A stretch of DNA of 54,379 bases, taken from IMG/VR virus record IMGVR_UViG_3300009551_000054, positions 1 to 54,379 of that record; one strand, written 5' to 3'. Positions 6,359 through 52,674 of the stretch are shown one piece after another. Each line of letters starts with the position of its first letter. The stretch's first letter is position 1. Below the pieces are notes generated by a model. The model worked only from the letters and a program-made list of their open reading frames with translations. It was not told the DNA's origin and did not search any database. A program made the translations under genes and the position numbers. This stretch comes from a virus.

Positions 6359-6434
6359 GCGCTGGTAGCCCAACGGTAGAGGCAGCGGCTTCAAAACCCG
6401 CATAGTGTCAGTTCAAGTCTGGCCAAGCGCACCA
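6359..6434 (+). tRNA. tRNA-like gene, anticodon CAA (or TCA) in a strained loop
   Basis: 76 bases with encoded CCA. Acceptor GCGCTGG/CAAGCGC has one mismatch; the T-arm GTCAG-TTCAAGT-CTGGC is well paired; the D-stem is GCC/GGC. The anticodon arm GCGGC-TTCAAAA-CCCGC has a C-C mismatch at the loop base, giving a four-pair stem and nine-base loop. Standard spacing reads CAA (6392-6394, leucine), but the variable loop is short, unlike bacterial leucine tRNAs. A one-base shift would read TCA. Identity is uncertain. Confidence 0.6.
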
Positions 6435-6438
6435 TTTA

Positions 6439-6515
6439 GGCTCTCTAGCCCAATTGGTAGAGGCGCTGGTCTTAGAAACCAGGCGGTCGGAGTTCGAATC
6501 TCCGGAGAGCCACCA
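6439..6515 (+). tRNA. tRNA with anticodon TAG (leucine codon CUA), short variable loop
   Basis: All four arms pair well: acceptor GGCTCTC/GAGAGCC, anticodon stem CTGGT/ACCAG, T-arm CGGAG-TTCGAAT-CTCCG, and an encoded ACCA end. The loop CTTAGAA puts TAG at 6473-6475. The five-base variable loop (GCGGT) makes it class I, whereas bacterial leucine tRNAs have a long variable arm. The D-arm resembles that of the tRNA just upstream, so the two may be duplicates. Confidence 0.85.
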
Positions 6516-6557
6516 AATTAAGCAGGACCGAAAATGTCATCGTCATCTAGTAGCTCC

Positions 6558-6644
6558 GGATGGGTGGCAGAGCGGTCATTGCAGCGGTTTGCTAAGCCGT
6601 AGGGTGTAACAGCCCCGCGAGTTCGAATCTCGCCCCATCCGCCA
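6558..6644 (+). tRNA. tRNA-Ser (GCT)
   Basis: 87 bases. Acceptor GGATGGG/CCCATCC, anticodon arm CGGT-TTGCTAA-GCCG with GCT at 6591-6593, a long variable arm (AGGGTGTAACAGCCCC), T-arm GCGAG-TTCGAAT-CTCGC and an encoded GCCA end. It has the class II form expected of serine tRNAs and reads AGC/AGT codons. The best-formed gene of the cluster. Confidence 0.92.
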
Positions 6645-6649
6645 AGTTC

Positions 6650-6742
6650 GGAAGGTTGGGCGAGTGGTTGTATGCCAACGGTCCCGAAAACCGTCAGGCC
6701 CGTGATGAGCGTGGTCCGTGGGTTCGAATCCCACACCTTCCG
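6650..6742 (+). tRNA. tRNA-Ser (CGA)-like, C33 and no encoded CCA
   Basis: Acceptor GGAAGGT/ACCTTCC, anticodon stem ACGGT/ACCGT, long variable arm and T-arm GTGGG-TTCGAAT-CCCAC support a class II serine tRNA with CGA at 6685-6687. The loop is CCCGAAA, so the almost universal U33 is C. The 3' end reads GCCG, so the terminal A is not encoded and would have to be added by the host CCA enzyme after trimming. Confidence 0.8.
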
Positions 6743-6850
6743 CCGAATTCCCCGCGAGGCGATTTGTTCGACCTCTACACCATTGCAATTTGCTCTGCAG
6801 TGATCGGCTTCATTGCCGGTCGTTTTATATCCGTCCGAAAGGAATCCATC

Positions 6851-8054: not shown

Positions 8055-8630
8055 ATGGCTGGTCTTATCACCAATGGTCTTCCTCAGATGGCGCAGCCGA
8101 CCGGCGCCGAACAGACGTATTTTGACACCAATCTGTCTCAGGGCTCGGCGCCGCAGGACGCGATGTCGTCCCTGTCGGAACTCGCCATCATCCTGCGCCA
8201 GCAAGGCTCGAGCATCGACAAAACGACGGTTGCCGGCACTCGCTATTACCGCTCGGTCGTTATCGGCAGCCAGAAGACGCTCACCGGCATTTCGGTACTG
8301 GTCGGTGGCACTGGTGGTACTGATAACTGGATTGTGGAACTCCACGATGTCAACGGCAACCTGGTTGCGACCTCGACGACTTCCGGTACCGCAGCTGGCA
8401 CCGCCAATAACTGGCAGCAGATCGCCTTCACTGCGACCTATACCGCGGTTCCGGGCACCTACTACGTCGCCGTCCAGTCCAACGGTACTACGGCCAAGTT
8501 CGCAGTGCTCGATAGCCCGGTGTCCTCGCTGACGGCGGGGTCTGCCACCGGCACATTCGGCACTGGCGCTGCCATTACGCCGCCCACGACCTATACGGTC
8601 AATCTGGGGCCGATGGCTCTCCCGTACTGA
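8055..8630 (+). CDS. Phage structural protein with jelly-roll-like domain, 191 aa
   Basis: ATG follows CGAAAGGATACCC. The first 60 residues are helical and polar (MSSLSELAIILRQQGSS). The rest is beta-rich with strands such as YYRSVVIGSQKTLTGISVLV and YYVAVQSNGTTAKFAVLD, resembling carbohydrate-binding or fibre-head folds. Probably part of the virion exterior. An intrinsic terminator follows at 8660. Confidence 0.7.
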   Translation: MAGLITNGLPQMAQPTGAEQTYFDTNLSQGSAPQDAMSSLSELAIILRQQGSSIDKTTVAGTRYYRSVVIGSQKTLTGISVLVGGTGGTDNWIVELHDVNGNLVATSTTSGTAAGTANNWQQIAFTATYTAVPGTYYVAVQSNGTTAKFAVLDSPVSSLTAGSATGTFGTGAAITPPTTYTVNLGPMALPY

Positions 8631-8659
8631 TCGGGCATCACAACATAGACCTGCAAGAG

Positions 8660-8680
8660 GCCTCCTTCGGGAGGCTTTTT
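8660..8680 (+). terminator. Intrinsic terminator
   Basis: GCCTCC (8660-8665), a TTCG tetraloop and GGAGGC (8670-8675) are followed by TTTTT. Classic form with a stable loop; it would limit read-through from the upstream structural genes. Confidence 0.85.
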
Positions 8681-8699
8681 GCTTTCTGAGGGGCGTTGA

Positions 8700-9131
8700 A
8701 TGGGTAAAAGCACGACAACGTCGAACAACTGGCTCAAGCTCGTCTTCAACGCCACCGCAATTGCGAACATCGCGGACAACGCTGCGAGTTCGCCCAACAC
8801 CCAACTCTTCGTCGCCCTTCACACCGCCGATCCGACGGCAAGCGGCAACCAGTCGAGCAACGAGGTCACGTACACCGGCTACGCCCGCGTTGCCGTCAAT
8901 CGGACAACAGGCGGATGGACGGCCTCCTCTGCGGCATCTACATCGCCCGTAGCGGCCATTACCTTCCCCGCTGGGACTGGCGGCTCGGGCACGGCGACAT
9001 TTGCCTCCGTGGGCATGCTGACGAGCGGTGCTGGTATCATTCTCTACAGCGGGCCAATTACGCCCAACATAATCACCGGAAACGGGATCACTCCCCAGCT
9101 TACCACAAGCTCAACCATCACGGAGTCCTGA
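8700..9131 (+). CDS. Tail-fibre-type structural protein, 143 aa
   Basis: Carries the motif LFVALHTADPTASGNQSSNE followed by YTGYARVAVNRTTGGW, a signature of a large family of small phage tail or fibre proteins. The C-terminal half is glycine- and threonine-rich beta sequence. Family-level recognition is good; its exact place in the particle is not known. Confidence 0.8.
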   Translation: MGKSTTTSNNWLKLVFNATAIANIADNAASSPNTQLFVALHTADPTASGNQSSNEVTYTGYARVAVNRTTGGWTASSAASTSPVAAITFPAGTGGSGTATFASVGMLTSGAGIILYSGPITPNIITGNGITPQLTTSSTITES

Positions 9132-25891: not shown

Positions 25892-28279
25892 ATGGCTGAC
25901 AACGGCGATGCAGTTTACCAAGGCTTGATCGCCCGCGGCTTTAGCGCGCCTCAAGCGGCGGTGCTTGCCGGAAATGCTCAGCAGGAATCGTCATTCAATC
26001 CGAACGCGGTAAACCCGACATCGGGCGCCTACGGCCTCATGCAGTGGCTAGGACCGCGCCGCACAGCGCTCAATAATTACGCCCAATCAACGGGACGTAG
26101 TGCGGCTGATCCGAACGCCCAACTCGACTTCATCGCAACCGAGATGAACGGACCGGAAGCGGGGAACGTCAAAGACTTCCTGACGGCGCCTGACGTGTCT
26201 TCAGCGAACGCGGCGCTGAAGCAGTATCTTCGCTACGGCGCCAATGAGGGCGGCAATCGCCTGCAATACTCGATGGCCTTTGCGAACGGCGGACAAGGAA
26301 ACAGCATGGCTAAATCGCCTGTCCCGCTGGCGCCGCCTGACACCTCGAAAGCTCTGGACGACATTTTTGGCGCCACATCTAGCGCAGCGAGTACGTCGTC
26401 GTCGCAGCCAGTAGACGCTGCGACGGGGCAATCTCTTAACGCGATATTCGGGCCCGACACAAACGCTTTCGGCACGACATCGAAGCCTGGGACGCCGCAA
26501 TTCGCGCAGGACGCGATCGCCTATGTGAAGGCGGGGAAACCAGCGCCTATTCCTGCGTCCGGGCCTCCTCCCGAAGCATCGCCACAGGGTGATGTTGTCC
26601 CCGGCTGGGCACGTGCGTTCAGCGAAAACGCCGTCAACTCGGTACCGATTGCTGGACCGGCTATCCACACGCTGAGAAACGACCTCATGGGGCCGTCGGG
26701 CGGCGCTCAGATGGATGCGCTTGGGCAGTCTGCCTTGGCTGCTAATCCGCTGGCGGCGGGGGCGGGAAGCGTCTTTGGCACGGTCGCCCCGTTCCTCGCG
26801 GTTGGGCCCGAAACGCTCGGCGCGAAAGTATTGGGAACCGCAACCGATTACGGTCTAGGGACTGTTGGGAACCTTGCAGCTCGCACAGCGGCTGATGGGC
26901 TCTCTGCCGGCGCAATTGCGGCAGGCGACACGCTGGCGCGCGGCGGGTCACTCGAAGACGCCAAGCACAACGCTCTGGTTGGCGGCATTGTTGGCGGCGC
27001 GGCAGCGCCAGTTGCTTCCGCGCTTGGTTCTGTCGGTGGCCTCATAGGGAAATCCGCTGTCGGTGCCGGCGCGGGCGCCGCACTCGGCGGCGGTGCAACG
27101 CTGGCCAATGGCGGCTCCCTGCAAGACGCAGGACAAAATGCGCTGATCGGCGCTGGCGCAGGTGCCGGAGTGGGTGCTGGAGCCAGTGTCGTCGGAACGC
27201 TCGCAAATCGTCTCATGCAAGGCGGCATCGCGCCGGACGCGGCGGCTTTGGCTGACAAGGCAATCAATCAATTCGGCATTCCCCTCGGTGCTGCGGACGT
27301 AAGCGGCAACCCAATGGTGAAAGTCGCCAAGTCGGTCGTGGACAAAATGCCGTTCAGCGGCGGCACGACCTCCAACGCAGCTCAGAACGCGGCGTTCACA
27401 CACGCCGTGGCGAACGAGATGGGCACGGACGCGACCGCGCTAACGCCGGATGTAATGTCGGCCACTCGCGACCGTATCGGGAAGGTCTTCGACGGCGTCG
27501 CGACCAGCGTCCCCAGCATCCCGGCCGACACGCAATTCCAGAACGACGTTTTGCAGGCAATGCAGGACGCCGAAGGCTCTCTTGGCGCCGACAAGATGAA
27601 GCCGTTCAACAACCAGGTCGACAACATCCTCAAGACCTTTGGTGGCGGCAATGCGATCACCGGCCAGCAGTTCCTTTCGCTGACCGACAAAAATTCGATC
27701 TTGAGCAAAGCAATCGCGAATGGCGGAGATCTAGGAAACGCCGCCTCAGGCCTGAAAGATGCGCTCTATGGCGCGATGGAACGGGCCGCCCCTCCCGATG
27801 TTATCCCGGCGCTGCAGCAAGCCCGTTATCAGTGGAAAGTAATGCGCTCGATCGAGGACAATGTTGCCAAATCTACAGATGGCGTCCTGAGTCCGCCAAC
27901 GCTCATGCAAGCGGTGGTCAAGAACTTCCCCAACATGGCCTATGACGGCGCTGGAAACATGGGCGACTTGGCACGTATCGGCCAACGATTCCTCAAGTCG
28001 CCCGGCAGCTCGCAGACCTCGGAACGGGGCGTCATCAACAACCTGCTCACCGGCGGCGGCTTGGCTGGACTCGTGACAGCGCCGCACATCGCTATTCCGG
28101 CACTCGCTGGCACGCTTGGAGCTTCTACGGCGGCTGGTGCTGCAATGCGCAGTCGTTGGCTGGCAAACAGCCTTATCCGGCCCCAGACTTATGATCCGAC
28201 GATGAACATCTTCACGCGGGCCGCGGTGCCTGCCGTCACGCCGCCAGTTCAGAACGCGTTGCTGGGGCCTGCTCAGTAG
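25892..28279 (+). CDS. Ejection protein with N-terminal tail lysozyme, P22 gp16-like position
   Basis: 795 residues. The first 130 match a phage tail lysozyme / transglycosylase domain: IARGFSAPQAAVLAGNAQQE with the catalytic Glu in QQESSFNPNAVN, then GAYGLMQWLGPRR. The remainder is a long Ala/Gly-rich region with hydrophobic stretches (GGIVGGAAAPVASALGSVGG) and a helical C-terminus. It probably enters the periplasm, opens the wall locally and helps DNA cross, as gp16 does. Its stop overlaps a convergent minus-strand gene by seven bases. Confidence 0.88.
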   Translation: MADNGDAVYQGLIARGFSAPQAAVLAGNAQQESSFNPNAVNPTSGAYGLMQWLGPRRTALNNYAQSTGRSAADPNAQLDFIATEMNGPEAGNVKDFLTAPDVSSANAALKQYLRYGANEGGNRLQYSMAFANGGQGNSMAKSPVPLAPPDTSKALDDIFGATSSAASTSSSQPVDAATGQSLNAIFGPDTNAFGTTSKPGTPQFAQDAIAYVKAGKPAPIPASGPPPEASPQGDVVPGWARAFSENAVNSVPIAGPAIHTLRNDLMGPSGGAQMDALGQSALAANPLAAGAGSVFGTVAPFLAVGPETLGAKVLGTATDYGLGTVGNLAARTAADGLSAGAIAAGDTLARGGSLEDAKHNALVGGIVGGAAAPVASALGSVGGLIGKSAVGAGAGAALGGGATLANGGSLQDAGQNALIGAGAGAGVGAGASVVGTLANRLMQGGIAPDAAALADKAINQFGIPLGAADVSGNPMVKVAKSVVDKMPFSGGTTSNAAQNAAFTHAVANEMGTDATALTPDVMSATRDRIGKVFDGVATSVPSIPADTQFQNDVLQAMQDAEGSLGADKMKPFNNQVDNILKTFGGGNAITGQQFLSLTDKNSILSKAIANGGDLGNAASGLKDALYGAMERAAPPDVIPALQQARYQWKVMRSIEDNVAKSTDGVLSPPTLMQAVVKNFPNMAYDGAGNMGDLARIGQRFLKSPGSSQTSERGVINNLLTGGGLAGLVTAPHIAIPALAGTLGASTAAGAAMRSRWLANSLIRPQTYDPTMNIFTRAAVPAVTPPVQNALLGPAQ

Positions 28280-28551
28280 ATGTTTTTGAGCCAGTTCGCA
28301 GCTGTGATGCCACCAAAGAACGCGAACAGGCCAGTCTCGGCGAAAAGCATGTCTCGCGTTCCGGTGTCGCGCGTAAAGAAGATGAACGCCAGCAGCCCGA
28401 TTGCCACAAACGTCATGTTGCGCATGAACTTAGGCGAGTAGTCGCGGACCATCTTCCCGGACCGCTTGTCGAAGCGGCTGTACTCGTGTGGGCCTAGGTC
28501 GATCGGATCGGGCATTCCCGCAAAATAGGTATCTACCCATCCTTTGTCCAT
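28273..28551 (-). CDS. Two-span membrane protein on the opposite strand, 92 aa
   Basis: The N-terminal half is soluble (PDPIDLGPHEYSRFDKRSGK) and is followed by two hydrophobic helices (FVAIGLLAFIFF and LFAFFGGITAANWL). It lies alone on the minus strand between the ejection and tailspike genes. Its ATG at 28551 abuts a plus-strand terminator. It has the look of an independently expressed accessory gene, for example one active in the lysogen. No promoter is clear. Confidence 0.7.
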   Translation of the reverse strand: MDKGWVDTYFAGMPDPIDLGPHEYSRFDKRSGKMVRDYSPKFMRNMTFVAIGLLAFIFFTRDTGTRDMLFAETGLFAFFGGITAANWLKNIY

Positions 28552-30252: not shown

Positions 30253-31050
30253 ATGCTCGATGCAGCAGCCTATAGTAGCCAGTTTGGTCAGGATCGTCTC
30301 CTCGATACCATGCTGTTCGAAGGCATGCGCGACGGCGTCTTTTTGGACGTTGGCGCGAACGACGGCATTAAATTCAGCAATACGCTGTTCTTTGAGAGAA
30401 CTCGCGGGTGGTCTGGCCTTTGCATAGAGGCCGATCCGGCCAGTTTTGACGCTCTGGCAAAGAACGGACGGACTGCTGAATGCCTGAATATCGGGGTCGG
30501 CGTCGCTGATGCCACACTCCCGTTCCTTCAGGTGGACGGCTACCACCAGATGCTCAGTGGCCTTCTGGCGACCGCAGATATGAAGGCGGTAGACAAAGCC
30601 ATTCGCAGGAACGGCGGCACAAAGCGGATCATTGATGTGCCAGTGCGGCGCCTGGGAGACGTACTCGCTGAGCGGTCGATCAGAGAGGTTCACTACCTCA
30701 GTCTAGATATCGAAGGCGGTGAGGCGAACGTACTCCGAGGCGTCGATTTCTCTCGCGTGATGCTTCATGTCGCAACAATCGAATGCAGCTCACCAAAAAA
30801 CCTAGCAGCGGCGCGCTCGCTTACGGCCGACGCCTTCGAGGCCGTCGGCATGATCGAAGGTGATCTGTTGGTGGTGAACCGCCGAAGCGGCGTCAGTCAG
30901 AAAGTTGGCCTCTTAGCCAAACATCTTGCTGACGAACATCTGCGCCGTGTCGAGGCAATTGAGACCGACCGCGAGCAGCGGAATAAGGGCCTTCGCGGCC
31001 TTATCGTTCGCCCGCTAATGCACCTAGGACGACAAGCCTCTCGCTGGTAG
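30253..31050 (+). CDS. FkbM-family methyltransferase
   Basis: 265 residues. It starts SSQFGQDRLLDTMLFEG, then the SAM-binding motif FLDVGANDG (about 30-38), CIEADP (about 57-62) and LSLDIEGGEANVLRG, the usual order of the FkbM family. Members methylate sugar hydroxyls on polysaccharides and other small substrates. Lying just after the tailspike, it could modify host surface glycans to block superinfection or alter the receptor; this is inference. The C-terminal 40 residues are basic. Confidence 0.88.
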   Translation: MLDAAAYSSQFGQDRLLDTMLFEGMRDGVFLDVGANDGIKFSNTLFFERTRGWSGLCIEADPASFDALAKNGRTAECLNIGVGVADATLPFLQVDGYHQMLSGLLATADMKAVDKAIRRNGGTKRIIDVPVRRLGDVLAERSIREVHYLSLDIEGGEANVLRGVDFSRVMLHVATIECSSPKNLAAARSLTADAFEAVGMIEGDLLVVNRRSGVSQKVGLLAKHLADEHLRRVEAIETDREQRNKGLRGLIVRPLMHLGRQASRW

Positions 31051-31112: not shown

Positions 31113-31676
31113 ATGCAGCAGCTTTCGTTGCCGTCGCTAAAGCACGTCGCGAGCCCAAACTTTTCCAGCCGCAACGGCCGAGCAATCGACCTCATCGTTT
31201 GCCATGACTGCGAAGGGAGCTATGCGGGCTCTATCTCGTGGTTCTCACAAAAAGCCTCTCAGGTGAGCGCTCACATCGTGCTCCGCGAGGATGGTGGCGA
31301 GGCGACGCAGATGGTGGATTTTGCCGACAAGGCATGGCACGCCATGGCCTTCAATTCCCGCTCCATCGGTATAGAGATGGCCGGCTATGCCGCGAAGGGT
31401 TTTGGAGCATCTGAGTGGCAAGAAGCGGCTGATATCGTCGCCTATCTACTTCACAAGTTCCAGATCCCTTGCGTCTGGTCGCAGCGTGGCGCTGTACCGG
31501 GATTTTGCTCGCATTTCGACCTTGGACAGGCTGGGGGCGGCCACAAAGACCCGACGACTGATCCGGTCGTCTGGTCACACTTCGCGGGGCTCGTGAAGAC
31601 CTCTTACCTGCTTACGCCGCCCGCGTCGTGGACGCCTGCGCCGTTCGTGCCGACGCCAACCGTTCGCAAAGACTAA
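31113..31676 (+). CDS. Endolysin, N-acetylmuramoyl-L-alanine amidase
   Basis: 187 residues of the Amidase_2 / peptidoglycan-recognition fold. Likely zinc ligands are His31 (IVCHDCEG), His134 (CSHFDLG) and Asp146 (GGHKDP), with HAMAFNSRSIGIEMAGYA the conserved core strand. It cuts the bond between N-acetylmuramic acid and L-alanine at the end of infection. No signal peptide, so a holin is needed; candidates follow at 32367 and 32817. Confidence 0.9.
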   Translation: MQQLSLPSLKHVASPNFSSRNGRAIDLIVCHDCEGSYAGSISWFSQKASQVSAHIVLREDGGEATQMVDFADKAWHAMAFNSRSIGIEMAGYAAKGFGASEWQEAADIVAYLLHKFQIPCVWSQRGAVPGFCSHFDLGQAGGGHKDPTTDPVVWSHFAGLVKTSYLLTPPASWTPAPFVPTPTVRKD

Positions 31677-32816: not shown

Positions 32817-33227
32817 ATGAGCACAATACGAAACGCCGCAGACAGTACGTTTGTCGTCGTCACAGCCAGAGCGGCTATGTTCGTCACGCCGTTCCTGTTC
32901 GGGGCCGCAGTCTATTTCGGTGGCCAATGGCTCGATGGTAGGTTCGACAAGATCAGCGATGCCGCAGCCGCCGCGTCGCTTGCCGCATCTGACGCAGCCA
33001 ATACCGCTGACTCTGCCAAAGACAAGGCTGCGACCGTCGCCAGCGATGTTGCGGTGATCAAGGCGACACAGGCCGATAACGCCGCGACACAGGCTCATAT
33101 TGCCCGTCAGGTGGACAAGCTCACCGACGTAGCGACCACGACCTCGATCCAGGTATCGGCGATTAGCGCCACGCTCGACTCGATGCGCAGTACGGGGCCG
33201 ATAGGCTCGTTGGACCACGTTCGCTGA
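32817..33227 (+). CDS. Membrane-anchored coiled-coil protein, holin or i-spanin-like
   Basis: 136 residues. One hydrophobic segment near the N-terminus (AAMFVTPFLFGAAVYFGGQW), then a long alanine-rich coiled coil (DAAAAASLAASDAANTADSA). This layout fits an inner-membrane spanin subunit that could pair with the lipoprotein at 31692, or a holin partner. It ends one base before a convergent gene. The 123 bases before it hold only a weak frame (see rejected items). Confidence 0.65.
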   Translation: MSTIRNAADSTFVVVTARAAMFVTPFLFGAAVYFGGQWLDGRFDKISDAAAAASLAASDAANTADSAKDKAATVASDVAVIKATQADNAATQAHIARQVDKLTDVATTTSIQVSAISATLDSMRSTGPIGSLDHVR

Positions 33228-33228
33228 T

Positions 33229-33648
33229 CTAGCCGTGATGCTCCGGCTCGCCCGTTTGCTGGACGGCCACAACGCCGTGGAATAGTCGCCAGAGCGGCGT
33301 TGCGACCATCAGCCATCCGATGATGGCGAAAAGGGCACCAATCCCCCACGTCAGCCAAAATTGCAGTGTCGACGGATCGACAAAGCGAGCCTGAGCGGCC
33401 GAGACGGCACAAATGCCGAAGATAATCGCAAGCAGTACAACCGTCGTCCGACTGAACATCCAGAGCGGCAGCGGCAAAAGCAGCATCAGAAATGCGAACC
33501 AGACACAGGCGAAGACGGCCACTGGTATCTGATGCAACGGGAATAGCCCGGTCATAGTGAAGACCAAGCCAACGTTCGGCCAGAACGTGACGAGGCCGAA
33601 GATGATGGCGATCACAAAGCGGGCGAGCGCCCAGCGAAATCCGCGCAT
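33229..33648 (-). CDS. Multi-span membrane protein, possible conversion gene
   Basis: 139 residues from the ATG at 33648, chosen because AGGAGG precedes it by five bases; a longer frame to 33723 lacks this. About four hydrophobic helices (FVIAIIFGLVTFWPNVGLVF, VFACVWFAFLMLLLPLPLWM, VVLLAIIFGICAVSAAQ, GIGALFAIIGWLMVAT). It is downstream of the secreted-protein gene on the same strand and opposite to the lysis genes. No transporter family recognised. Confidence 0.75.
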   Translation of the reverse strand: MRGFRWALARFVIAIIFGLVTFWPNVGLVFTMTGLFPLHQIPVAVFACVWFAFLMLLLPLPLWMFSRTTVVLLAIIFGICAVSAAQARFVDPSTLQFWLTWGIGALFAIIGWLMVATPLWRLFHGVVAVQQTGEPEHHG

Positions 33649-33669
33649 GTTGCCTCCTCGATAGTAGAC

Positions 33670-33695
33670 GCGGGAGTAGCCGTGACCACTCCCGC
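33670..33695 (-). other. Hairpin between the two minus-strand accessory genes
   Basis: GCGGGAGT (33670-33677) and ACTCCCGC (33688-33695) pair perfectly around a ten-base loop. No T-run on the minus strand, so attenuation or mRNA processing is more likely than full termination. Confidence 0.55.
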
Positions 33696-33715
33696 CGCCG
33701 TTGATGTGATGATGA

Positions 33716-34738
33716 TTACGCACCGAACAGATTGTCCGAGAGCAGCCCGAAGATGACTGCCAGCGAACGCACGACCGGGAGAGGCACGCCGTTGCCGGTC
33801 AAGGTGCCGGAAGCATCGACGTGGCTCGGCGTGTCGGTATCCTGACCGTCGACCTGAACCGTGACGTTATCCGAGTTCTTCTGAAGAATGACGCCCTGAA
33901 TTCCGGGGACTTGCGCGAAGAGATCGGAACTGGCGAACATCGAATTGTTGCCCGTTGTGTCCTGCGTCGGGAGTGCCAGATTGAGATTGTAGGTCATCTG
34001 GTTCGACGCGCCCTTCACCGCCGCCCAAGGCATGTTTCCCTTGAGGTCGTACTTGGAGCCGTTGCACGTGCCGGAAAGGTCGAGGAACCACGAGTTGGTC
34101 TGATATGCGAAGACCATCTTACCGTCCCAAGTGCAGCCCTTGTCATCGGGCCAGCCGGCGGATGGGATAAACAGCCCGTCGAGGGCGACCGAATCCAGGC
34201 GCTTGTCGATGGTGCCATTAGCAGCGGCGCTGTCGAGTTGCAGCTTGTCGTAGACGGCCTGCTCGACAGCATCCATGCCCGTGGCGCTGAGAGACGCTTT
34301 GAGCTTCAGACGGCCACTGAACTGCGTTGCTGAGGCCGGCGCATTGCCGAGCGACAGATAGTTGATCGACATCTGCTCGGCTTCAGCCGAGCCGGCGCTG
34401 CTCACGTCATAGCCGCCGAGGTACTGCGTCCGCTGATATTCCTGCTTGTTGGACGGATTGATGACCGAACCAGCACCGCTAACACCGCACACCTTGTCCT
34501 TATGGAAGATGAGCAGGCTTGATCCGCCCGGGGTGCAGGTAACCGTCATGGTGAGGTCGACCTGACTGTCAACGATGCCGACCTTGAAGGTGTTCTTCTG
34601 GTTCGGGTCGGTGAGTCCCGGCATGTCGGCAATATCGGTGAACACGACCGACGCCGCAGTCGCCGGAGGCGTCGCTGCCTGTTGTGCATAAGCCCCGGTC
34701 GTCAACACGAGCAGGGTCGCAATTGCCAATTTGATCAT
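33716..34738 (-). CDS. Secreted protein of unknown function, 340 aa
   Basis: Starts MIKLAIATLLVLTTGAYAQQ, a standard Sec signal peptide with cleavage after AYA; the TTG further upstream at 34771 is not needed. AAGGAC lies before the ATG. The mature protein has four cysteines (VTCTPGG, KVCGV, KGCTWD, GTCNGS), which could make two disulfides, and beta-rich sequence. It shows no resemblance to virion or lysis proteins. Transcribed against the late genes, next to a regulator, it fits a lysogenic-conversion gene whose product goes to the periplasm or outside. Confidence 0.8.
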   Translation of the reverse strand: MIKLAIATLLVLTTGAYAQQAATPPATAASVVFTDIADMPGLTDPNQKNTFKVGIVDSQVDLTMTVTCTPGGSSLLIFHKDKVCGVSGAGSVINPSNKQEYQRTQYLGGYDVSSAGSAEAEQMSINYLSLGNAPASATQFSGRLKLKASLSATGMDAVEQAVYDKLQLDSAAANGTIDKRLDSVALDGLFIPSAGWPDDKGCTWDGKMVFAYQTNSWFLDLSGTCNGSKYDLKGNMPWAAVKGASNQMTYNLNLALPTQDTTGNNSMFASSDLFAQVPGIQGVILQKNSDNVTVQVDGQDTDTPSHVDASGTLTGNGVPLPVVRSLAVIFGLLSDNLFGA

Positions 34739-34803
34739 TGGCGAGTCCTTTCTCAGTGGGAGAGCGGGCAATCGAATGTGCCCCTATCGTTTACAAAAAT
34801 AAA

Positions 34804-34816
34804 CGTAAGGGTTACG
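34804..34816. promoter_or_regulatory. Short inverted repeat in the divergent spacer
   Basis: CGTAA-GGG-TTACG, five perfect pairs around three bases, about 20 bases from the larger palindrome at 34837. It may be a second site for the XRE regulator or part of the leftward promoter. Confidence 0.4.
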
Positions 34817-34836
34817 GTAGCCAACGTCAAGATAAA

Positions 34837-34853
34837 ATAACCGCAGCGGTTAT
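34837..34853. promoter_or_regulatory. Perfect 17-bp palindrome, likely operator
   Basis: ATAACCGC-A-GCGGTTAT lies between the secreted-protein gene (minus) and the XRE gene (plus), 14 bases before the TTG at 34867. TAAAAT (34833-34838), a possible -10 box, overlaps it. The size and symmetry fit a dimeric XRE repressor. Confidence 0.65.
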
Positions 34854-34866
34854 CGGAGTTGGTGAT

Positions 34867-35130
34867 TTGGATATTAGCGTGCTACCAGCGGACATGATCA
34901 CGGCGGCTCAAATCCGCGCCGCGCGCGCGCTTATCGGATGGAAACAGACCGATTTGGCCGTTGCTTCTGGTCTTTCAGAGATGAGCATCAAGAACATCGA
35001 GCGCGACGCGACCGACCCGCGCGCCAGTACGCTGCTCAAAATCCAAGAAGCGCTAGAGGCGGCTGGAGTCGTCTTTCTCGATCCAGGCGTCCATCTCGAC
35101 GGCGGCCACGGCCTCAGGCTGCGCCGCTAG
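34867..35130 (+). CDS. XRE-family regulator, divergent from the secreted-protein gene
   Basis: 87 residues from the TTG at 34867 (CGGAG seven bases upstream) or 78 from the ATG at 34894. The HTH is complete: QIRAARALIGWKQTDLAVAS, then GLSEMSIKNIERDATDPRAS and TLLKIQEALEAAGVVFLDPG. This small single-domain form is common in alphaproteobacterial genomes. It probably controls itself and the divergent genes through the palindrome at 34837. Confidence 0.85.
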   Translation: MDISVLPADMITAAQIRAARALIGWKQTDLAVASGLSEMSIKNIERDATDPRASTLLKIQEALEAAGVVFLDPGVHLDGGHGLRLRR

Positions 35131-35206
35131 CCCAACCCCTCAACGACATCGCTGCGCGTCTGGCCTCGTGCCAGCGTGCTTTGTCGCGTCTGCCAATGGA
35201 GGTGCT

Positions 35207-35575
35207 ATGACCGCCCGACAATGGTTCGCCCTCATCTTCGGAGCTGGGCTTATATGCTTCGGCATGTGCATTTGGATAACGCATGCAAAGGCGGGGGAGT
35301 GTGGTATTGCGAGCTGGTACGGTCCAGAAAGCGGTCACCGAACGGCCAATGGTGAGCCGTTCCCCACCCGTGAGGCTACTGCAGCTCACCGCTCACTGCC
35401 GTTCAATTCCCGCGTGCAGGTAACGGATCAGCGCAGCGGTCGCTCTATCATCGTCCGCATCAATGATCGCGGGCCTGCGGCATGGACGCATCGGATCATT
35501 GATCTTTCGCCGGCAGCAAAGCGAGCACTCGGCATGAACGGGTTGGCCAGCGTCTGCCTTTCTCTAGCGCATTGA
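35207..35575 (+). CDS. RlpA-like double-psi beta-barrel protein with signal anchor
   Basis: 122 residues from the ATG at 35207 (GGAGG upstream). An N-terminal membrane segment or signal (WFALIFGAGLICFGMCIWIT) is followed by an RlpA-like domain: GIASWYGPESGHRTANGEPF, then PFNSRVQVTDQRSGRS and VRINDRGP with the likely catalytic Asp87. RlpA proteins cleave peptidoglycan glycan strands lacking stem peptides or act at the septum. It lacks the SPOR domain. It may aid lysis, entry exclusion, or be a conversion gene. Confidence 0.85.
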   Translation: MTARQWFALIFGAGLICFGMCIWITHAKAGECGIASWYGPESGHRTANGEPFPTREATAAHRSLPFNSRVQVTDQRSGRSIIVRINDRGPAAWTHRIIDLSPAAKRALGMNGLASVCLSLAH

Positions 35576-36742: not shown

Positions 36743-37317
36743 TTTCTCTCTCCTTGGAAGCCAATGGGGGCTAGCTCGGCCGGCGCCGGAATTCGCATGC
36801 GATCCTTCACCGGGATCATTGACGTCATGATCTCCAAAACGCGCTTCTCGAGATCGTCTTCCTCTGGCGGCGGTTCTTCCTCATCCTCGCAGCCAAATAC
36901 CCATTCGCGCAGCGCGTAGGGGACAATTGCCCTAATGTCGGCCTCGGTCAGATAGGCTTCAGCTTCGAACGCCTCGACAGCTTCGTCGCCGATCCCAGGG
37001 TGCGCGTCGCAGAAGTCCTCGACCTTGTCGTCGAGGCATTCCCAGAAGTCTCCCATCAGAGAGTCGAAGAAAACGCTCTCCGGATACCACTCTCGCGCAA
37101 TGCGGAGAGGTCTGAGCATTCGATGCAGGAGTTTCTCTGCCTCGAGACTACAACTCACCTCGTCGCGAAGCGCGAGTTTGTCTGGATTGCCGGTTTGAAG
37201 AATTGCGAGGCGAGTCCTCGTGTTGATGGCAAATCCGAGCTTGAAAGCCTGTTGGCCGGCCGAATGGATTTGGTAGAGCGAGCCGATGTCTTCTATGCGC
37301 TCACGACGCTTAGCCAT
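36739..37317 (-). CDS. GIY-YIG / T5orf172-like protein
   Basis: 192 residues from the ATG at 37317 (AAGGA six bases upstream). The N-terminal 90 fit the T5orf172 branch of the GIY-YIG fold: IGSLYQIHSAGQQAFKLGFA, then TRTRLAILQTGNPDKL and the helical SLEAEKLLHRMLRPLRIARE. The C-terminal half is acidic (EDEEEPPPEEDD). Nuclease activity is possible, but the strict GIY-YIG residues are altered. A second, divergent member is at 49548-50147. Confidence 0.72.
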   Translation of the reverse strand: MAKRRERIEDIGSLYQIHSAGQQAFKLGFAINTRTRLAILQTGNPDKLALRDEVSCSLEAEKLLHRMLRPLRIAREWYPESVFFDSLMGDFWECLDDKVEDFCDAHPGIGDEAVEAFEAEAYLTEADIRAIVPYALREWVFGCEDEEEPPPEEDDLEKRVLEIMTSMIPVKDRMRIPAPAELAPIGFQGERN

Positions 37318-38384
37318 TTCCAATCCTTGTATTTGTCGCCCGTTTGCCGGAGATGCGTATACCGCTTGAGCGAGGTCCAGCTTCGGTGTCCGCTGACAGG
37401 CGACACATGCGGGATATCCTTGCCCATCTCGAAAAGTCGGCTCACGCCGTCATGGCGCAGATCGTGGAAGTGCAGCCGCTCGTCGTCGGGCATTTCCGGG
37501 GTGTTGATCCCGAGCGTGTAGCAAGCCCGCGTAAAGGCAGCACCGATTGCATCCGAGGTGTAGGGGAATATCTCGTCGGCCGTCTTCGGCATCGACAAAG
37601 CGATAGCCAACGCCTCAGGCGGTAGATCACACCACACGTCATTGCCGATCTTCTGGCCGGGGTGCTTCATGTCCTCGATCAAGAGGCGCGAACCCTCGGC
37701 GTCGAGGTGTTCCCACTTGGCTCGTGTGATCTCGCTTTCGCGCCGCGTGGAGAAGATCGCAAAGGCGATGATCTTGTGCATGGGGGCCGATTCCGGAGCC
37801 CGTCCCTGCCTCTCGACAAAGAAGGCCATCAGCTTGTCGAGTTCCGCCAGTGTCGGACGCCTGTCTCGCTCCTGGCTCTTGGCTGTCACGCCCAGCCGGC
37901 GCAGCACCGCGTGCGCGTCCTGCACTGCCTGACGGTTGAGATCGTAGCCCCAAGCGGGCTTGGCGATCGCAAAGATTGCTGCAAGGTGGGACAGGTAATT
38001 CCCCACCGTCTGCGGCTGCATCGTCTTCGCCAGCTCCTGCGCGAACGACACGATGTGCTCGCTTCCGATCTCAGCCACGTCCATCTTCGCGATGGCATAG
38101 CGCTTGATCGAGCGAAGCACCTGCGCCTTGGTGCGGCCAATCTCCCTCAGACTCTCATCGACATAGCGGTCGATCACGTCGGCCAGCGTCACCTTTGCCT
38201 TGCGCTCAAGGGCGCCGGGCTGCGATAATGCTTCCTCGCGCTTCCGCATCCACGCCACTGCCGGCTGACGCCGGTCAAAGGTCTGCGTCTCACGATGGAC
38301 AATTTGCCCACCCTTCTTGATGACGATCTGAGCCGAGTAGCCCACGGTTCCGTCCTTCCGCTTGCGCGGGATAATGCTGCCCAT
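37293..38384 (-). CDS. int: Tyrosine-family integrase
   Basis: 363 residues from the ATG at 38384, which has GGAGGGG about 13 bases upstream; the open frame runs on to 38612 but that part covers the likely promoter region. An N-terminal arm-binding part (IIPRKRKDGTVGYSAQIVIK), a core-binding helical domain, and a catalytic domain with Arg215 (STRRESEI), Lys240, HxxR at 307-310 (FHDLRHDG), His333 (SGHRSW) and nucleophile Tyr342 (LKRYTHL). It catalyses site-specific integration and excision. No attachment core could be located. Confidence 0.93.
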   Translation of the reverse strand: MGSIIPRKRKDGTVGYSAQIVIKKGGQIVHRETQTFDRRQPAVAWMRKREEALSQPGALERKAKVTLADVIDRYVDESLREIGRTKAQVLRSIKRYAIAKMDVAEIGSEHIVSFAQELAKTMQPQTVGNYLSHLAAIFAIAKPAWGYDLNRQAVQDAHAVLRRLGVTAKSQERDRRPTLAELDKLMAFFVERQGRAPESAPMHKIIAFAIFSTRRESEITRAKWEHLDAEGSRLLIEDMKHPGQKIGNDVWCDLPPEALAIALSMPKTADEIFPYTSDAIGAAFTRACYTLGINTPEMPDDERLHFHDLRHDGVSRLFEMGKDIPHVSPVSGHRSWTSLKRYTHLRQTGDKYKDWKWLSVVSA

Positions 38385-38407
38385 CGGTACGTCGCGGCCC
38401 CTCCAAA

Positions 38408-38424
38408 GTACGTCGCCAACGTAC
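38408..38424. promoter_or_regulatory. Palindrome upstream of integrase
   Basis: GTACGT-CGCCA-ACGTAC, six perfect pairs around five bases, directly before the integrase ribosome site. The left half-sequence GTACGTCGC also recurs at 38387-38395, close to the start codon. Spacing like an operator that could silence int expression. Confidence 0.5.
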
Positions 38425-38619
38425 CGGAGTCGCCAAAACAAGCAATAATGAGCACAAATATAGAACAAACGAGCGGCGTTTGGAATGGCTGAGACGGCTG
38501 GAAATCGGGGAAAGTCGATTGTTTCCAATGCCCGTCGGTTCGCCATAGCCCCGATGATGGACTGGACGGACACACTGTAATCATTGATGTTTTCGGCGCG
38601 CGTCGCGACCATGACGTAC

Positions 38620-48563: not shown

Positions 48564-49229
48564 TCACATAGGCTCGAATTTGCCGATCACGACGCCTTCG
48601 ATTCGAACGACTTCATCGGAATCCGAGCTATCCAACATCACGGGTTCTTGATAGCGGGGATCGTCGGAGCAAGGCATCAGGAAGGAACCTTTGCGCGAAT
48701 AACGCAGCTCCTTGATCGTGTGTTCGACGAGGCCGGAGCGCTCGCGCACGACATGGACTAGCTGGCCGTGTTGAGGGCCACCAGGGTAACGGTCATAGCG
48801 CGCACAGATTGCGAAAGCCCCATCCGCTATACGTAAATTAACGCTTGGCCCCTCAACCTTAAGACAGTATTGCGCGCTCGCCGGAATATCGGGGCGAGGC
48901 ACCGCAGGCACCAGAATCTCCATATCTTCTAGCGCGTTCCCTTCCCGGAATACGCCCGCCGAGACAGTGCCAACTAGTGGCACTTTTATGACGTGGTTAA
49001 CGACTTCTACGGTCGCCTCCCCGTTTTCACCCGCCAAGATCATCTGGGGTTTCACGCCATAGGCGAGAGCATAGCGCTGCGCTGCGCCGTAGGGAATGTT
49101 CCGCGTGCCGTTTTCGTGGCTCCGGTAGGTGACCTCGTTCCAACCGAAGGCGTCGGCCGCGTCTTTCGCCGTCTCGAAACCCTTTGCTTCTCTTAGCCTT
49201 TTGAGGCGGTCGCCCGCTGTCCGGTTCAT
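48564..49229 (-). CDS. CI/LexA-type prophage repressor (S24 peptidase)
   Basis: 221 residues. N-terminal HTH at about 7-68 (DAADAFGWNEVTYRSHENGT), a linker, and an S24 domain with the Ala91-Gly92 cleavage site in VGTVSAGVF, Ser129 (VEGPSVN) and Lys173 (HTIKEL). It should hold the lysogenic state and self-cleave when RecA is activated. Flanked by two operator pairs. No Shine-Dalgarno is evident before its ATG. Its HTH is also found at the C-terminus of the 4604 protein. Confidence 0.92.
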   Translation of the reverse strand: MNRTAGDRLKRLREAKGFETAKDAADAFGWNEVTYRSHENGTRNIPYGAAQRYALAYGVKPQMILAGENGEATVEVVNHVIKVPLVGTVSAGVFREGNALEDMEILVPAVPRPDIPASAQYCLKVEGPSVNLRIADGAFAICARYDRYPGGPQHGQLVHVVRERSGLVEHTIKELRYSRKGSFLMPCSDDPRYQEPVMLDSSDSDEVVRIEGVVIGKFEPM

Positions 49230-51367: not shown

Positions 51368-51661
51368 ATGGGGCTTCTACAGCGCATTTTCGGCAAAGAG
51401 CGCCGGGTGTTCAGCACCCGCGCTTCATCGCGAGAACAGGCCAAGGCGCTTCGGACGAAAGACGAAACGACAGCCGCTCTCCGAAGCTACGTGGCGAAGC
51501 GCAAAACCGCTGAGCTTATGCAGGCGAGGGGGCGGGGGTTGCTGACCAAGCACGCGGTCAGGCTGGGCTCGTCAAATCCGGATCGTCTCGCTTGGGCGAA
51601 GATCAATTTGTCTGGCGGTCCGCCGCATGATCCGCCAATCCCTCCCCACCAAGCGCGATAG
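51368..51661 (+). CDS. Small basic protein, 97 aa
   Basis: MGLLQRIFGKERRVFSTRAS followed by lysine/arginine-rich helices and a proline-rich end. Sixteen bases before the RuvC-like gene. No family recognised. Confidence 0.65.
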   Translation: MGLLQRIFGKERRVFSTRASSREQAKALRTKDETTAALRSYVAKRKTAELMQARGRGLLTKHAVRLGSSNPDRLAWAKINLSGGPPHDPPIPPHQAR

Positions 51662-51676: not shown

Positions 51677-52141
51677 ATGGCTGATTGCGTTTTGGGTGTG
51701 GACCCAGGCCTGTCTGGTGCGATCTCGTTCTACTTCCCGAACGAGCCTGGGTTGATCACTGCCGAGGACGTTCCGGTTGCCGGCGGCGAGATCGATGTCG
51801 CGACGCTGGCGCGTCGTCTTGAGCAAATGCGGCCGACCGTCGCCATTGTCGAGCGGGTCGGAGCGATGCCGAAGCAGGGCGTCGCTTCGACCTTCAAGTT
51901 CGGCATGGCCTTCGGAATGGTGCGCGGCGTCATCGCCTCCTGCGGCGTTCCTATGCATCTCGTCACGCCGGCCGTGTGGAAGAAACACTATCGCCTCGAC
52001 AGCGACAAGGAAAAGGCCCGCGCGCTGGCGCTGAGGCTCTGGCCGTCGTCGGAGGCGTTCGGTCGCAAGAAAGACCACGGCAGGGCTGAGGCGGCGCTGA
52101 TCGCGCGCTACGGCGCCGAAATGATCGTGAGAGCGAAATGA
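51677..52141 (+). CDS. RuvC-like Holliday junction nuclease
   Basis: 154 residues with the RNase H-fold acidic set: Asp9 (LGVDPGLSGA), Glu59 (AIVERVGAMP) and Asp133/Glu138 (KKDHGRAEAALIARYG). It should cut branched DNA made during replication or recombination before packaging. Overlaps the GcrA gene by four bases. Confidence 0.9.
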   Translation: MADCVLGVDPGLSGAISFYFPNEPGLITAEDVPVAGGEIDVATLARRLEQMRPTVAIVERVGAMPKQGVASTFKFGMAFGMVRGVIASCGVPMHLVTPAVWKKHYRLDSDKEKARALALRLWPSSEAFGRKKDHGRAEAALIARYGAEMIVRAK

Positions 52142-52674
52142 CTCTGCCCTGGACAGATGAGCGCATCGAGACCTTGAAGCTCCGATGGCGCGAAGGTTTC
52201 AGCGCGTCCGAAATCGCTGCGGAGCTTGGCGGCTCGTCCCGCAATGCTGTGATCAGCAAAGTGCATCGGCTGAATCTACCCCGTCTGGCTCACAATCTCG
52301 AGCGCAAACGGCTCGTCGCTGCCGATCGTAAGAAGCCAGCGGTCAGCCGCATAGCGAAACACAAGCGCCGTCCGATTGGACCGCCGGCCGATCTGCCAAT
52401 CCCGCCAGTTCCGTCGGTAGGGCTTCTCTCGCTGCTGCAGTTGACCGAGCACACCTGCAAGTGGCCGATCGGTGATCCGAAGCTGGCCGGTTTTGGCTTC
52501 TGTGGGTCGGTGTCAGTTCCCGGCAAGCCGTATTGCGCTGACCATTGCAGTCAAGCGTATTCGCGAGTTTCCACGGTCGTCGGCCATATCGGGGAAAACT
52601 CACTTTCTGCGGGTCATTTCCAGCGAACCACCGCATCGTCGCTTCATGTGCAGAAGGGAACGCAAGGTGCCTAG
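52138..52674 (+). CDS. gcrA: GcrA-family cell-cycle regulator
   Basis: 178 residues. The N-terminal helix-turn-helix domain (WTDERIETLKLRWREGFSAS, EIAAELGGSSRNAVISKVHR) and the C-terminal cysteine motifs (TCKWPIGDP, GFCGSVSVPGKPYCADHC) are both present. In Caulobacter, GcrA binds RNA polymerase sigma-70 and acts at promoters with methylated GANTC. A phage copy could redirect sigma-70 transcription to phage promoters during infection. The last 40 residues are longer than in typical host copies. Confidence 0.92.
   Translation: MTLPWTDERIETLKLRWREGFSASEIAAELGGSSRNAVISKVHRLNLPRLAHNLERKRLVAADRKKPAVSRIAKHKRRPIGPPADLPIPPVPSVGLLSLLQLTEHTCKWPIGDPKLAGFGFCGSVSVPGKPYCADHCSQAYSRVSTVVGHIGENSLSAGHFQRTTASSLHVQKGTQGA

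Follow-up and report, generated by a model that had tools for sequence, protein, structure and literature searches.

Phage morons, for example those of the TerB type (PHROG 632), lie between conserved genes, carry their own promoter, and are absent from sister phages. In acr operons, the core promoter contains one inverted repeat, or two, associated with the Aca repressors (PMC9410906). SieA of P22 is an inner-membrane protein that the phage can do without (PMC10883804), and phage T4 encodes both a membrane protein, Imm, and a periplasmic protein, Spackle (PMC7677548). The locus described here shares features with all of these. It lies in a 54,379-bp virus record, which was analyzed at its full length and is referred to below as the window. 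The window is a P22-like temperate phage: it encodes a portal protein (E 4e-153) and a coat protein of the P22 type, a tyrosine integrase (37296 to 38612), an S24-type repressor with a helix-turn-helix (HTH) domain (48567 to 49229), the recombination proteins ERF and YqaJ, and a tail lysozyme. IMG/VR contig 3300025924_000087 is 100% identical to the window where the two overlap and is the same virus. The relatives of two proteins of the locus, the XRE regulator and the exported protein secr, point to Hyphomicrobiales as the probable hosts of this phage of soil bacteria. The window also contains four clustered tRNA genes (6359 to 6744, plus strand; Leu, Leu, Ser, and Ser) and a phage-borne homologue of the cell-cycle regulator GcrA (52138 to 52674, plus strand; E 1.5e-39).

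The features of the locus are as follows, with O1 and O2 denoting predicted operators.

33228 to 35207, no strand: whole inserted module, from alignment to the sister phage, where the site is empty
33229 to 33648, minus: mem, a 139-aa four-span inner-membrane protein with homologues in two other phage contigs
33716 to 34738, minus: secr, a 340-aa exported protein with four cysteines, a signal-peptide-like start, and homologues
34739 to 34893: spacer between secr and the XRE gene
34799 to 34815, no strand: O1, ATAAACGTAAGGGTTAC, 17 bp, an imperfect second copy of the palindrome
34802 to 34807, minus: predicted -10 box of the secr-mem promoter, TACGTT, at a conserved place in the aligned spacers
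34825 to 34830, minus: predicted -35 box of the same promoter, TTGACG, 17 nt from the -10 box; its complement CGTCAA is invariant in alignment A2
34837 to 34853, no strand: O2, ATAACCGCAGCGGTTAT, 17 bp
34894 to 35130, plus: 78-aa XRE/Cro-type repressor (Pfam HTH_3, E 1.7e-09)

The module and its empty site in a sister phage

A sequence-only reading of this stretch had proposed a self-contained accessory module, and comparison with a sister phage (IMG/VR contig 3300025913_000057) strongly supports this. The lysis region of the sister phage is 90% identical to that of the window, and its gene for a double-psi beta-barrel (DPBB) protein is 83% identical. In the sister phage, the DPBB start codon (ATG; window 35208) comes directly after the stop codon of the left-hand gene (window 33225 to 33227), so that approximately 1,980 bp of the window (33228 to 35207) is missing at an exact empty site; no other match to the module DNA was found elsewhere in the sister record. 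The module thus separates two genes that are direct neighbors in the sister phage, and the secr-mem pair also recurs in two other phages (see below). The same reading had placed this minus-strand pair beside lysis genes, and these neighbors are real: the lysis cassette that the module abuts has an Amidase_2 endolysin gene (31113 to 31676), and this cassette is kept in the module-free sister phage. At the left end of the module, mem and the convergent left-hand gene have stop codons separated by 1 nt.

Like other morons, the module lies between conserved genes, has its own predicted promoter (TTGACG-N17-TACGTT), and is absent from a sister phage. It differs from them in having a dedicated repressor, a two-site operator, and cargo of undescribed families; in addition, a simple scan found no terminator-like site at the mem end, and the G+C content of the module does not differ from that of the rest of the phage. 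We conclude that it is very probably a moron with an autorepressor, inserted where the lysis region of this P22-like phage ends.

Other genes of this region deserve mention in their own right. The gene that adjoins the module (35208 to 35575, plus strand) encodes an exported, RlpA-like DPBB protein of the lytic transglycosylase type. An FkbM-type methyltransferase gene (30253 to 31050, plus strand) has the fiber gene on one side and the endolysin gene on the other. Among the plus-strand tail genes is a small minus-strand gene (28273 to 28551) for a 92-aa protein with a membrane segment; the sister phage has a relative (73%), followed by ~2.7 kb up to the fiber gene, and this region may be a second variable slot.

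The operator spacer and the XRE regulator

The divergent small XRE gene and the perfect 17-bp palindrome reported from the sequence are both present (a GTG at 34879 is a possible alternative start for XRE), except that the spacer contains two putative operators rather than one. O2 is the perfect palindrome, with 8-bp arms and a 1-nt center, and O1 lies 38 bp away. None of 300 dinucleotide shuffles of the spacer gave as good a pair of sites, and the only further operator copy in the window is a match with three mismatches at 51503. Between the two sites is CGTCAA, which reads TTGACG on the minus strand and is 17 nt from the TACGTT inside O1. This predicted promoter is omitted by a strict consensus scan, in which its -10 box falls under the threshold. 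O1 overlaps the -10 box, so that the core promoter of secr-mem itself contains an inverted repeat, and O2 is just upstream of the -35 box. Since the dual operator covers the -10 box, the arrangement points to tight self-repression rather than to constitutive expression from the prophage. The center of O2 is ~50 bp upstream of where transcription is expected to begin, and at low levels XRE may possibly activate the promoter, as CI does from OR2.

The same two-operator unit is found upstream of closely related XRE genes at 11 phage and Hyphomicrobiales loci (the window, L024 to L027, and L039 to L044; the spacers of L027 and L041 are the same, which leaves ten distinct). Counted from the XRE start, the predicted sites lie near -95 and -56, 38 to 40 bp apart, with CGTCAA between them, and at each of the 11 loci 0 of 300 shuffles was as good. 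CGTCAA is at the matching place in L039 to L045, apart from CATCAA in L044 and TGTCAA in L039. L045 has only one operator site, and none was found at five more distant XRE genes. The XRE proteins of L024 to L027 are 68 to 79% identical to that of the window, and the genes divergent from the unit differ among loci: L024 has a TerB moron, L025 and L026 have PHROG 4652, L040 has a protein with matches to single-strand DNA binding families, and the remainder have unknowns. L024 (7232 to 8234) parallels the window, in that its TerB moron has the same operators, an XRE that is 79% identical to the window's, and the same slot and layout (lysis genes, minus-strand cargo, operators, and XRE). Because the divergent genes differ and yet the arrangement is kept, the predicted XRE-operator unit is portable, with a moron role in the window. 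Since an S24-type repressor and an integrase are encoded elsewhere in the phage, XRE is a local extra.

The XRE protein resembles Aca repressors in being small and single-HTH, in having inverted repeats in a core promoter, and in the variety of its cargo. We do not class it as an Aca, since its gene is divergent from the cargo, whereas an aca gene is downstream within the cargo operon together with acr genes. Moreover, the cargo here is exported and membrane-bound rather than anti-CRISPR, and repression is predicted. Regulation of secr-mem by XRE at these putative operators has good support from the sequence.

The exported and membrane proteins and their relatives

Both cargo proteins have the properties first read from the sequence. 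secr has a signal-peptide-like start, an AGGA Shine-Dalgarno sequence, and cysteines at positions 68, 84, 202, and 225. mem has four hydrophobic spans in 139 aa and an ATG preceded by GAGGAGG; a GTG start that would give 164 aa is less likely. The statement that neither protein matches a known family holds for Pfam, PHROGs, and PADLOC (and, for secr, NCBIfam) but does not extend to relatives, as secr has chromosomal homologues and mem has phage homologues. Neither protein matches a virion, lysis, holin, or antiholin family, and neither matches a known exclusion or defense protein in PADLOC, PHROG, or Pfam. For secr, an exact-peptide search of genome contigs and of phage and plasmid records, as well as a PDB sequence search, returned nothing usable, and profile matches to M23 peptidases (E 0.03 and 0.35) were likewise unusable. 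AlphaFold models built on three-sequence alignments were poor and uninformative (mean pLDDT 54 and 59), and fold-search matches to them (TM about 0.1 to 0.2) were not used.

When 397 genomes from the order were searched with a sensitive method, five chromosomal relatives of secr were found, four full-length (33 to 48% identical) and one a fragment; P0002 matches in these genomes were dropped (E > 0.001, mostly partial or interrupted). The best chromosomal homologues reach 48 to 51% identity. In a family-level search, 16 of 136 sampled genomes of the Devosiaceae, the family that holds Devosia elaeis, have the secr family (about 12% of a partial genome sampling), as do a few other Hyphomicrobiales. 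A class-wide profile search of 385 genomes gave no match, so the family is patchy. The chromosomal copies that we examined have ordinary cellular genes around them and no mem, and a search of the 136 Devosiaceae genomes likewise gave no mem; within the searches made, mem is found in phages only. Two neighbors of chromosomal secr were considered as equivalents of mem and rejected: a DUF6524 protein (PF20134) in L071 (hhalign probability 0.3%, shuffle Z about -0.2) and a Transgly_assoc protein in L070 and L073, for which there was no support.

The two genes are near each other in two further, otherwise unrelated phage contigs. L121, a 12-kb contig with a portal protein, has secr (43% identical), two small open reading frames, and mem (8344 to 8763; 36% identity, with a small search giving E 1e-22) in that order on one strand. 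L106, a 107-kb contig with a phage-type DNA polymerase processivity factor and a queuine tRNA-ribosyltransferase, has mem (1538 to 1957) 4 kb upstream of secr (31% identical) on the same strand; this mem is 23% identical over its full length (Z 11.9 against 2,000 shuffles; BLASTP E 3e-8). No recognizable lysis cassette surrounds the pair in either contig. No integrase was detected in L106, which proves little, given that both contigs may be fragments. RNA-repair genes stand beside the pair in both phages: an RtcB ligase gene between mem and secr in L106 (1995 to 3179) and a TROVE/Ro60 gene after mem in L121 (9149 to 10498).

In a tree of secr, the L106 and L121 copies group with one chromosomal copy (100/99), and the window copy is apart from them. 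On this basis secr likely entered phages at least twice, although the tree has long branches and is read with reserve.

Proposed function and rival explanations

Based on the predicted promoter, operators, and protein locations, we propose that an XRE dimer binds O1 and O2 and so turns off secr-mem and probably its own gene as well. By the logic of Aca repressors, infection would be followed by a burst of secr and mem that lasts until XRE builds up; either this slow build-up or a release of repression could give the burst. The two proteins, secr from the periplasm and mem from within the inner membrane, would then act jointly on the envelope, and that they are an envelope-acting pair is probable. 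Their most likely action would be to block DNA entry of a second, related phage. Entry exclusion is our first choice in view of a pair that is carried by phages, can be dispensed with, and is directed at the envelope, with the locations of T4 Spackle and Imm and of P22 SieA, but as the specific function of secr-mem it is a tentative assignment. Like SieA, mem is a dispensable inner-membrane protein in a P22-like phage, a likeness by description; it differs in its 139 aa and four spans and in being paired with an exported protein. Like T4, the window phage pairs a membrane protein with a periplasmic one and encodes a virion tail lysozyme, which is a possible target of the kind that Spackle has. 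In contrast, no sequence relation of secr or mem to Imm or Spackle was detected in Pfam or PHROGs, and Spackle is only about one-third the size of secr. The complete explanation, a moron cassette with an Aca-like autorepressor that releases a burst of an envelope-acting pair for entry exclusion, has in our estimate somewhat less than an even chance of being right throughout. Counting against it are the poor structure models, the chromosomal secr genes that lack mem, the negative terminator scan and unchanged G+C content, and the 4-kb distance that separates the two genes in L106.

The main rival to entry exclusion is host conversion with a host-derived protein. Here the prophage would supply a periplasmic or surface protein of host type, secr, that changes physiology (stress tolerance, adhesion, or nutrient capture), with mem as a partner and XRE tuning the dose. 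The chromosomal secr genes of the Devosiaceae and other Hyphomicrobiales, with their cellular neighbors, and the likely two or more entries of secr into phages are consistent with this. Because chromosomal secr stands without mem, secr would have a cellular role of its own that is not necessarily exclusion. The same absence of mem beside these copies also argues against conversion by the pair, as does the presence of the pair in the 107-kb contig with no integrase found, and we consider this explanation rather unlikely. The tight self-repression to which the operators point and the occurrence in that contig suggest that strict lysogenic conversion may not be a broad enough label.

The position of the module against the lysis cassette with its amidase gene, together with a four-span protein and a periplasmic protein that fit such a role, could also suggest control of lysis timing, with mem as a holin or antiholin and secr as an RI-like periplasmic regulator that delays or triggers lysis. 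However, the pair is on the opposite strand with its own repressor and promoter, the sister phage dispenses with it and keeps the lysis cassette, the pair is outside any recognizable lysis cassette in L121 and L106, and a holin or lysis family match is absent, all of which make this improbable. More improbable still is a toxin-antitoxin or addiction-like locus in which XRE would serve as the antitoxin or as its regulator: a small XRE gene is divergent from small genes and there is a weak match to an addiction antidote (PF21716, E 0.083, under the cut-off), but antitoxin genes usually sit in the operon of the toxin, secr is large and exported with free-standing chromosomal homologues, and unrelated genes face the same XRE elsewhere.

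Since two unrelated phages also have the pair, and the switch is found elsewhere with other cargo, the module is probably a mobile and so far unnamed device, by which the surface of the host cell is altered or rival phages are blocked. It is rather unlikely, though conceivable, that secr-mem, with its own protein families, is the first phage system for exclusion or envelope takeover that has two parts (periplasmic and inner-membrane), its secreted half recruited from hosts at least twice and carried on a swappable XRE-operator cassette. secr and mem are in any case each members of a family that has no name in the libraries searched, and the natural pair of filled and empty sites in the window and its sister phage allows a clean test of both. 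The operator signature TRACCNTANSGGTTA, present twice, 38 to 40 bp apart, around CGTCAA, marks one regulator with exchangeable cargo in phages as well as in Hyphomicrobiales genomes. XRE could guide the discovery of more accessory genes of unknown function, as aca genes do, and, if our reading is true, the XRE-operator cassette would be an aca-like beacon for such genes in the phages of Hyphomicrobiales.
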